A stretch of DNA of 64,000 bases, from assembly GCA_028282805.1 (NCBI GenBank), contig JANQHD010000033.1:1-64000 (forward strand). The letters run 5' to 3'. Below the pieces are notes generated by a model. The model was given only the letters and a program-made list of their open reading frames with translations, was not told the origin of the DNA and made no database searches. This document shows, piece by piece, positions 39,979 through 44,479 of the stretch (position 1 is its first letter; each line of letters starts with the position of its first letter). Source of the DNA: Phycisphaeraceae bacterium. Its GTDB lineage: Bacteria > Planctomycetota > Phycisphaerae > Phycisphaerales > Zrk34. The position numbers and the translations under genes are program-made.

Positions 39979-40122
39979 GAATGACCAATGTTCAATGCCC
40001 AATGACCAATCAAATCCCAAGGCCCAAATCCCAAACCGACGCGATCATTCGAACTTCAGTCATTGGACATTCATTGGTTATTGGTAATTGGGTCTTGGTC
40101 ATTCCGCCGTCGCAAGACGGCG
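39979..40122. repeat. composite hairpin element (CCAATGACCAAT family), copy 1
   Basis: Slipped words such as AATGACCAATG and TCATTGGACATT form long arms, joined through GGAATG (here in reverse) to a GC hairpin CGCCGTC-GCAA-GACGGCG at 40105-40122. Similar composites are at 43430 and 58505; copies without the GC stem lie at 44521 and 47940. Confidence 0.8.
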
Positions 40123-42798: not shown

Positions 42799-42827
42799 TT
42801 GACAGCCCCCGGGATCGCCGACATAAT
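42799..42827 (+). promoter_or_regulatory. near-consensus sigma-70 promoter
   Basis: A perfect TTGACA and CATAAT (one mismatch) are spaced by exactly 17 bases. It is the best housekeeping promoter in the window and points into a region without a credible gene. Confidence 0.85.
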
Positions 42828-42833
42828 GAGACA

Positions 42834-43253
42834 AGTTGGTTATCTTTGACATTCGAACTCATACCGGCGAGTCACGCTCTGAGGCGGACTCCCGAGCCGC
42901 GTCTTACGCACACCGAACGAGCGGCACCCGACACTCGGACGCATCACGGCATGCCTGTGAGGCGACCGAACCCAAGCGCCAGGCCGACCCCATTTGGCAC
43001 TTCTTAATAGGCCTGGTTTCGCGTAAGACGAGGACAGCAGGCTGACGCTCGAACTCCCGCGAGCTCAGCCACGGACCAGACACAACTTCCGGGGATTTCT
43101 GTGTCAGGTTCGAGCCCCCCTCAGAGCGATCGCCGGTGTGTTCGACCTAATTAGTTGGGCCGTCTTTGAAACGGAATCGGGTGTGGGGTGAGGCGGCCCA
43201 AGGGTCGGCGAGCCGGCGGCGGTCGCCAGTCTCGCCGGCCCTTCTTTTGTTTT
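42834..43253 (+). ncRNA. candidate structured non-coding RNA, family unknown
   Basis: A promoter upstream and a terminator downstream frame about 420 bases with no ORF of chromosomal codon bias. The ends of the core pair in three perfect blocks: TCGAAC (42853-42858) with 43140-43145, ACCGGCGA (42863-42870) with 43130-43137, and CGCTCTGAG (42875-42883) with 43120-43128. Nested stems follow: CGTCTTACGC (42900-42909) with 43021-43030, CCAGGCC (42979-42985) with 43010-43016, an 11-bp hairpin at 43040-43070 and GACACA/TGTGTC at 43079-43105. I find no RNase P, SRP, 6S or tmRNA signature. Expression and 5' end are inferred. Confidence 0.65.
43201..43253 (+). terminator. terminator of the candidate RNA
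   Basis: GGGTCGGCGAG pairs with CTCGCCGGCCC, followed by CTTCTTTTGTTTT. Confidence 0.8.
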
Positions 43254-43429: not shown

Positions 43430-43576
43430 CCGCCGCCGCTCGGCGGCGGAATGATCAAGTCCCAATGACCAATCACCAATCAAATCCCAATGCCCAAGCC
43501 CCAAACCGTGGCGGGCTCATTGGGCATTCGGGCATTGGTCATTGATTGGTCGTTGAACATTGATCATTGGTCATTT
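43430..43576. repeat. composite hairpin element, copy 2
   Basis: The GC hairpin CGCCGCCG-CT-CGGCGGCG (43431-43448), the joint GGAATG and then CCAATGACCAATC-type arms facing CATTGGTCATTGATTGG. The right end contains the stop codon of the isoaspartyl peptidase gene. Confidence 0.8.
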
Positions 43577-44479
43577 AATTCCCCCGATCCCCACCGTCCG
43601 CTCGCGTGCGCCGTCGATCGATGCGCGGAACATGCTCGCCGTGTTGTGCGGCAGGGCGATGTGGCCCCGCGCGTCCACCGCGACCAGGCCGCACGTGTCG
43701 GCCGGCAGCTCGTCGACGGCGCGCCGCGCCGCCTCGGCCAACGACAAGCCCGCCAGTTCCACCAGGTCCGCCACACGCCGCGCCGTCGCGTGTTCCATGA
43801 TGCGCTCGCCCATGCCCGTGCCGCTGACCGCGCAGCGTGCGTCCGCCCACGTGCCCGCGCCCACGATCGGCGAATCGCCCACGCGCCCCGGCAGCTTGTT
43901 GATCATGCCCCCCGTGCTCGTCGCCGCCGCCACCCGGCCCTGCGCATCGCACGCCACCGCGCCCACCGTGCCCTTCGTGTCGTGGTCGATCGACGTCGTC
44001 TCACCCGCCGCGACCTTCAGCCACTGCTTGTGGCGCAGCTCGGTGATCAGCGCCGCGTCGTCGACGCGCTCCATGCCGATCAAATCCGCGAACCGCCCCG
44101 CGCCTTGCCCGGCGAGCAGCACGTGCGGGGTCTGCTCCATGACCGCCCGCGCCAGGCTCACCGGGTGACGCACGCCGCGCACGATCGCCACCGCGCCGCT
44201 GCGGCCGGTCGGCCCGTCCATGATCGACGCGTCCATCTCGACCCGCCCGTCGGCGTTCAGCGTCGAGCCGCGGCCCGCGTTGAACACCGGCTCGTCTTCC
44301 AGCAGCCGCACCGCCAGCTCCACCGCGTCCAGCGCGCCGCCGCCACCGGCCAACGCCTCGGCGCCGGCGTTGACGATCTCCGTCAACACCCGCTCGTAGT
44401 AGGCGAGAGGGTGGGGCAGCTTGGCCGGGTCGATCTTCCCCGCCCCGCCGTGGATCGCGATCGCGTATTTCTTTGCCAT
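43571..44479 (-). CDS. iaaA: isoaspartyl peptidase/L-asparaginase (Ntn hydrolase)
   Basis: The 302-residue precursor should cleave itself before Thr171 in TKGTVGAVACD to give alpha and beta subunits, with that Thr as the nucleophile. It hydrolyses isoaspartyl dipeptides and asparagine. Other family features are IAIHGGAGKID, VFNAGRGSTLNADG and ATSTGGMINKLPGRVGDSP. The ATG at 44479 gives the standard start. The stop codon lies within the CCAATGACCAAT repeat at its 3' end. Confidence 0.94.
   Translation of the reverse strand: MAKKYAIAIHGGAGKIDPAKLPHPLAYYERVLTEIVNAGAEALAGGGGALDAVELAVRLLEDEPVFNAGRGSTLNADGRVEMDASIMDGPTGRSGAVAIVRGVRHPVSLARAVMEQTPHVLLAGQGAGRFADLIGMERVDDAALITELRHKQWLKVAAGETTSIDHDTKGTVGAVACDAQGRVAAATSTGGMINKLPGRVGDSPIVGAGTWADARCAVSGTGMGERIMEHATARRVADLVELAGLSLAEAARRAVDELPADTCGLVAVDARGHIALPHNTASMFRASIDGARERTVGIGGIK

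Follow-up and report, generated by a model that had tools for sequence, protein, structure and literature searches.

Which gene, if any, lies at positions 42799-43253 of the window (i.e., the whole 64-kb stretch of DNA that was analyzed), between the UDG gene on one side and an asparaginase gene and rplK on the other (neighbors assigned with Pfam)? A first-pass annotation had proposed a structured RNA, either a housekeeping RNA that had diverged beyond recognition or a new one.

Predicted transcription unit and fold

The gene was assigned to the + strand because of its promoter, its terminator, and the conservation of both in relatives. The promoter is of the sigma-70 type (TTGACA-17-CATAAT, 42799-42827, + strand) with 11 of 12 consensus matches, and the pattern TTGACA-(16-18)-NATAAT occurs only this once in the 64-kb window when both strands are scanned (chance expectation 0). 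At the other end, a 17-bp terminator hairpin (43201-43242) is followed by CTTCTTTTGTTTT; this terminator was absent from the output of a simple consensus scanner. The transcript limits (42833 and 43250) were inferred from these two signals. Two relatives carry a counterpart: the congeneric G001 (JANQJT010000176.1, Phycisphaeraceae bacterium PL25a_bin.124), which is the only congeneric genome compared, and G006 (JANQHK010000087.1, PL23b_bin.93), from another genus of the same family. Open frames exist within the RNA body, and comparing those of the window with those of G001 revealed no corresponding frame and no conserved peptide. The near-consensus promoter, the terminator with a T-rich tail, and the lack of a credible ORF, all read by eye in the first-pass annotation, were thus borne out. 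The features of the locus are as follows.

42799-42827 (+): sigma-70-type promoter, TTGACA-17-CATAAT; unique in the window, with counterparts in G001 and G006
42833-43250 (+): whole inferred transcript, ~420 nt; fold z = -5.6, no Rfam match, no conserved ORF
42853-43145 (+): structured body, ~293 nt, closed by helix P1; present in the window and G001, absent from G006
42853-42891 (+): 5' strand of P1, pairing with 43112-43145; 31 end-to-end pairs, four two-sided pairing-keeping changes relative to G001
42897-42909 (+): 5' strand of P2, pairing with 43021-43033; 12 bp
42918-42938 (+): invariant core CGAGCGGCACCCGACAC-N-CGG, inside P2; 17 of 17 positions and then CGG identical in G001
42935-42969 (+): P3 hairpin, with a conserved CGG/CCG base and a replaced upper stem; 13 bp in the window, 11 bp in G001
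42966-42977 (+): second conserved strip, CCGAACCCA-N-GC, from the comparison with G001
43021-43033 (+): 3' strand of P2, partner of 42897-42909; 12 bp
43040-43070 (+): P5 hairpin, its C-rich loop AACUCCCG (43052-43059) conserved; loop AGCUCCCG in G001, compensatory stem change
43073-43111 (+): P6 hairpin; counterpart in G001 weaker and shorter
43112-43145 (+): 3' strand of P1, on the same basis as its 5' strand
43156-43200 (+): hairpin of the 3' module, loop UCGGGUGUGGGGUGA; GGGUGUGGGGUGAGGCG (43179-43195) identical in three genomes
43201-43253 (+): intrinsic terminator made of a 17-bp hairpin and a T-rich tail; 17 bp in the window and G001

The minimum-energy fold of the transcript reached -194 kcal/mol, versus -162 +/- 5.7 kcal/mol for shuffled sequences (z = -5.6; 0 of 100 shuffles equal), and the body alone gave z = -6.6. 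In this fold P1 includes three blocks (42853-42858/43140-43145, 6 bp; 42863-42870/43130-43137, 8 bp; 42875-42883/43120-43128, 9 bp), and the interior holds 42900-42909/43021-43030 (10 bp), 42979-42985/43010-43016 (7 bp), and the 43040-43070 hairpin (11 bp). Every stem that had been listed by eye is present. A 6-bp hairpin placed earlier at 43079-43105 does exist, and its extent had to be corrected to 11 bp (43073-43084/43100-43111). The opposite strand likewise folds well (z = -4.7), as expected from the strong inverted complementarity.

Repeats of the CCAATGCCCAATGACCAATGACCAAT type were also observed in intergenic spacers of the window, one at 43456-43580, which adjoins the RNA and has its two halves inverted, and another at ~39990-40120, near rplU.

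Structure conservation and distribution among relatives

In G001 the RNA stands at the same place, between UDG and the asparaginase gene with rplK, with a promoter TTGACA-17-AATAAT and a conserved terminator, while its body is strongly diverged. The two bodies nevertheless fold alike: that of G001 gave z = -6.5, and the tree edit distance between the folds was 140, versus 253 +/- 26 when the second sequence was shuffled (0 of 200 as close). Since a MAFFT alignment of the two bodies misplaced the helices, pairs were counted helix by helix on our own alignment, anchored on the invariant segments. End-to-end pairs of P1 numbered 31 in the window (reached by 0 of 300 shuffles) and 26 in G001 (4 of 300). 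The P1 sequence differs between the two genomes: where the window has AUACCGGC/GCCGGUGU, G001 has ACGUUGGC/GCCAACGU. Three two-sided, pairing-keeping changes fall in this block and one in the next. The 12-bp P2 of the window has as its counterpart in G001 a helix of 11+9 bp that is unrelated in sequence, yet paired. In P5 the loop A-N-CUCCCG is kept and the stem passes from CUCG/CGAG (window) to CUUG/CAAG (G001), a compensatory change. One pair of the 3' hairpin reads C-G, U-G, and U-A across the three species, the step from C-G to U-A being compensatory, and the terminator hairpin shows one compensatory G-C to A-T change in G006. With only two homologues of full length and a single short one available, these counts rest on few independent events.

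From the aligned sequences, the pattern of changes is the one expected of an RNA in which shape and exposed islands are maintained. Chance folding of functionless, GC-rich intergenic DNA would agree with the base composition and with the good folds of both strands, but it is very improbable in view of z-scores of -5.6 to -6.6, a conserved promoter and terminator, and an architecture conserved with compensatory changes. We consider it highly likely that this is a real structured RNA gene. The second option of the first-pass annotation (i.e., a new structured RNA) and the compensatory changes by which it was to be checked therefore found support in G001, which keeps the architecture at the syntenic place with helices that have changed and re-paired.

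The order UDG - RNA - (asparaginase) - rplK is common to the three genomes. The gene is bipartite, composed of a conserved 3' hairpin module found in three species and an optional structured domain of ~300 nt found only in the genus of the window, because the G006 short form, located between UDG and rplK, has the promoter (TTGACA-17-GATAAT), the G-rich 3' hairpin, and a hairpin resembling a terminator whose T tail is weaker (L035 1380-1680), but lacks the 300-nt body at the syntenic place. A body confined to one genus and missing at the same place in G006 could also be a non-autonomous mobile element (an inverted-repeat element or intron) inserted into a small RNA gene and devoid of function at the RNA level, and an imperfect AGTT-GG...TCTTTGA repeat on either side of the body would agree with this. 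We regard such an origin as improbable: the genome holds no further copy, the flanking repeat is weak (matched in 66 of 2000 shuffles for the window and 292 of 2000 for G001), no Rfam intron family matches, and the end helix keeps its pairing rather than its sequence, unlike terminal repeats.

Beyond these genomes, no RNA was present upstream of UDG in G003 and G005. In G007 and G008 no copy was recognized on either side of UDG; in G002 and G004 the contig stops too near UDG for the presence of the RNA to be judged. A covariance model of the 3' module (R1) scored 111.5, 110.7, and 72.2 bits in the window, G001, and G006, the three sequences from which it was built, and gave no convincing match elsewhere when run on 298 genomes from the class and 400 genomes from the order. 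Likewise, a model of the core (R2) found nothing convincing outside the three genomes in 400 genomes from the order and 392 from the phylum. Both sets were sampled from larger groups and filtered strictly, so that rare relatives may be missed. The RNA is thus lineage-restricted, with relatives only in G001 and G006 among the hundreds of Phycisphaerae and Planctomycetota genomes examined.

Several candidate relatives were rejected. DNA-query matches in relatives (L003-L007) were short and GC-rich and covered only the terminator stem and no other part of the RNA, and the pattern matches with 2-3 mismatches that were inspected outside the family (L017, L022, L029) lay in sequence without the hairpin. 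In weak matches to R1 (G107, G036) and to R2 (G579, G447, G462, G510, and others), the loop or core was missing, and they are probably chance similarities. The 16-mer core also occurs in viral contigs, but the structure that should follow it was missing from all eight that were inspected; phage and plasmid collections gave no match. One weak core match in another family (G508:C56:14084-14147, L093/L102) is oddly placed, on the opposite strand just downstream of the UDG gene; it was judged to be chance because it lies on the other side of UDG, lacks a visible promoter, and is missing from the relatives of that genome.

Comparison with known RNA families

The first-pass annotation had recognized no RNase P, tmRNA, SRP, or 6S layout at this locus and had named an Rfam search as a check. 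Rfam release 15 (4227 models) gave no match in the whole window at gathering thresholds, and only unrelated weak matches at the RNA locus at E values up to 10. The G001 and G006 loci gave no match at E up to 1, and ARAGORN found no tmRNA in the window. In agreement with the absence of those layouts, none of the RNase P, tmRNA, and SRP models matched the locus. These RNAs resemble the one described here in belonging to the 100-400 nt class and in being independently transcribed. In contrast to the locus, each was found elsewhere in the same genome above the cut-off: RNase P RNA (RF00010) at C50:60697-61096 (247 bits), tmRNA (RF00023) at C17:16623-17002 (170 bits), and SRP RNA (RF00169) on C47 (53 bits). 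6S RNA (RF00013) shares with this RNA a stand-alone gene, a sigma-70-type promoter, and a long closing helix; it differs in being one long bubble hairpin, whereas the fold at the locus is multibranched and has no covariance match to 6S. A candidate at C51:10847-10966 (28.7 bits, below the Rfam cut-off) does fold into a single long bubble hairpin, closely preceded by TATAAT, and is probably the 6S RNA of this genome.

Since RNase P RNA, tmRNA, SRP RNA, and a 6S-like RNA are all located elsewhere in the genome, the locus does not represent an overlooked housekeeping RNA. A diverged member of one of these families would have the size, promoter, and closing helix expected of its kind, but the lack of Rfam matches in all three genomes and the presence of the four RNAs elsewhere make it scarcely credible, and the first option of the earlier annotation was refuted. 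The RNA almost certainly falls outside all known Rfam families, and we found no publications on the RNA of this locus (42799-43253).

Comparative genomics has described 104 candidate structured RNAs, large orphan bacterial ones among them (Genome Biol. 2010, PMC2864571). Like these, the present RNA is intergenic and non-coding with a conserved structure; unlike them, it combines a very narrow distribution with an optional body domain and no Rfam match. Large, complex bacterial ncRNAs are few and their roles have often been unexpected, and here the support comes from comparative structure, beyond folding alone. This also points to RNA genes of Planctomycetota that family libraries have missed. 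On present evidence, we describe a new RNA family and not a new kind of system.

Invariant islands and candidate modes of action

Three fixed islands stand amid diverged sequence, namely the 17-nt core, the C-rich hairpin loop, and the G-rich loop of the 3' hairpin. Within the body, the core CGGCACCCGACAC and the C-rich loop ANCUCCCG are invariant and unpaired, and the core CGAGCGGCACCCGACAC-N-CGG and the strip CCGAACCCA-N-GC stand on either side of P3. The promoter and terminator of the gene itself are kept in relatives (the terminator being weaker in G006), and conserved unpaired stretches that could serve as seeds are present in three species for the G-rich 3' loop and in two for the C-rich P5 loop. 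On sequence grounds, we read the gene as an independently transcribed structured ncRNA and, with moderate confidence, as a probable base-pairing regulator in trans; trans rather than cis action is favored because of the terminator and of the opposite-strand asparaginase gene in the window and G001. A constitutively expressed RNA would then offer its invariant loops as seeds. RNAIII of Staphylococcus aureus is a large regulatory RNA whose C-rich hairpin loops bind Shine-Dalgarno sequences. By analogy only, the C-rich P5 loop might pair in the same manner with Shine-Dalgarno-like, G-rich sites of mRNAs. The G-rich 3' loop might be an ancestral seed or a protein-binding site. The 3' module would be the common part in the three species and the body a lineage-specific accessory domain. 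The likeness to RNAIII extends to a length of several hundred nucleotides, many hairpins, a long-range closing pairing, a strong promoter and terminator, and C-rich loops suited to Shine-Dalgarno sites; however, this RNA is unrelated in sequence, has no conserved small ORF, and belongs to another phylum.

Targets of the G-rich loop were searched with up to 2 mismatches. Sites in G006 were at control level, and, apart from the RNA locus itself, none of the orthologous pairs among the examined loci shared a complementary site. Because no shared complementary target was detected, binding of a protein or of the ribosome is the main rival. Here the RNA would be a scaffold or sponge, its invariant loops serving as recognition sites for the ribosome or an RNA-binding protein, and the body would stabilize or regulate it. 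GGGGUGA in the 3' loop, for instance, is similar to a Shine-Dalgarno sequence, and pairing over 7 bp would be possible with the anti-Shine-Dalgarno UCACCUC, which we take to be the canonical 16S end rather than this genome's own. Such a role, which remains a tentative alternative, gains from the invariance of the G-rich loop in three species and from a strong, apparently constitutive promoter as in 6S-like RNAs. It is weakened by the lack of any recognized protein-binding site of known type and by an anti-Shine-Dalgarno match of only 7 bp to a presumed 16S end.

The gene order suggests another origin: the locus might have begun as a leader or attenuator acting in cis on the L11 (rplK) operon and have become stand-alone in the genus of the window after the asparaginase gene intervened. 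The G006 RNA lies directly upstream of rplK on the same strand, with ~135 nt from terminator to start, and in that genome it could serve as a leader of the rplK operon. On the other hand, in the window and G001 the opposite-strand asparaginase gene separates the RNA from rplK and the 3' module is still unchanged, and G005, a family member in which UDG adjoins rplK, has no RNA. We consider this origin unlikely.

Returning to a regulator that acts by base pairing, the core and the G-rich loop are themselves complementary: CACCC-G-ACAC-N-CGG can pair with UCGGGUGU-G-GGGUG over 12-13 bp around one G-G mismatch. In both genomes with a body, no other part of the body is a better partner for the G-rich loop than the core (-23.5 kcal/mol in the window, ~-21 kcal/mol in G001), although 24 of 200 shuffled window bodies attain -23.5 kcal/mol as well, and the G001 energy is unexceptional. 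Pairing of the core with the loop inside the long form is therefore suggestive at this stage; if it occurs, it could lock or tune the RNA. A more far-reaching reading, in which the RNA would form a new class of large RNAs whose optional 300-nt domain controls the 3' hairpin through an on-off switch between core and G-rich loop, or whose body is itself catalytic or sensing, seems doubtful. The natural short form in the sister genus makes the role of the large domain approachable by comparing long and short RNAs. In G006, which is without the core, the first two bases of the loop are CU instead of UC, a single observation, which would agree with a loosened constraint on pairing inside the molecule.
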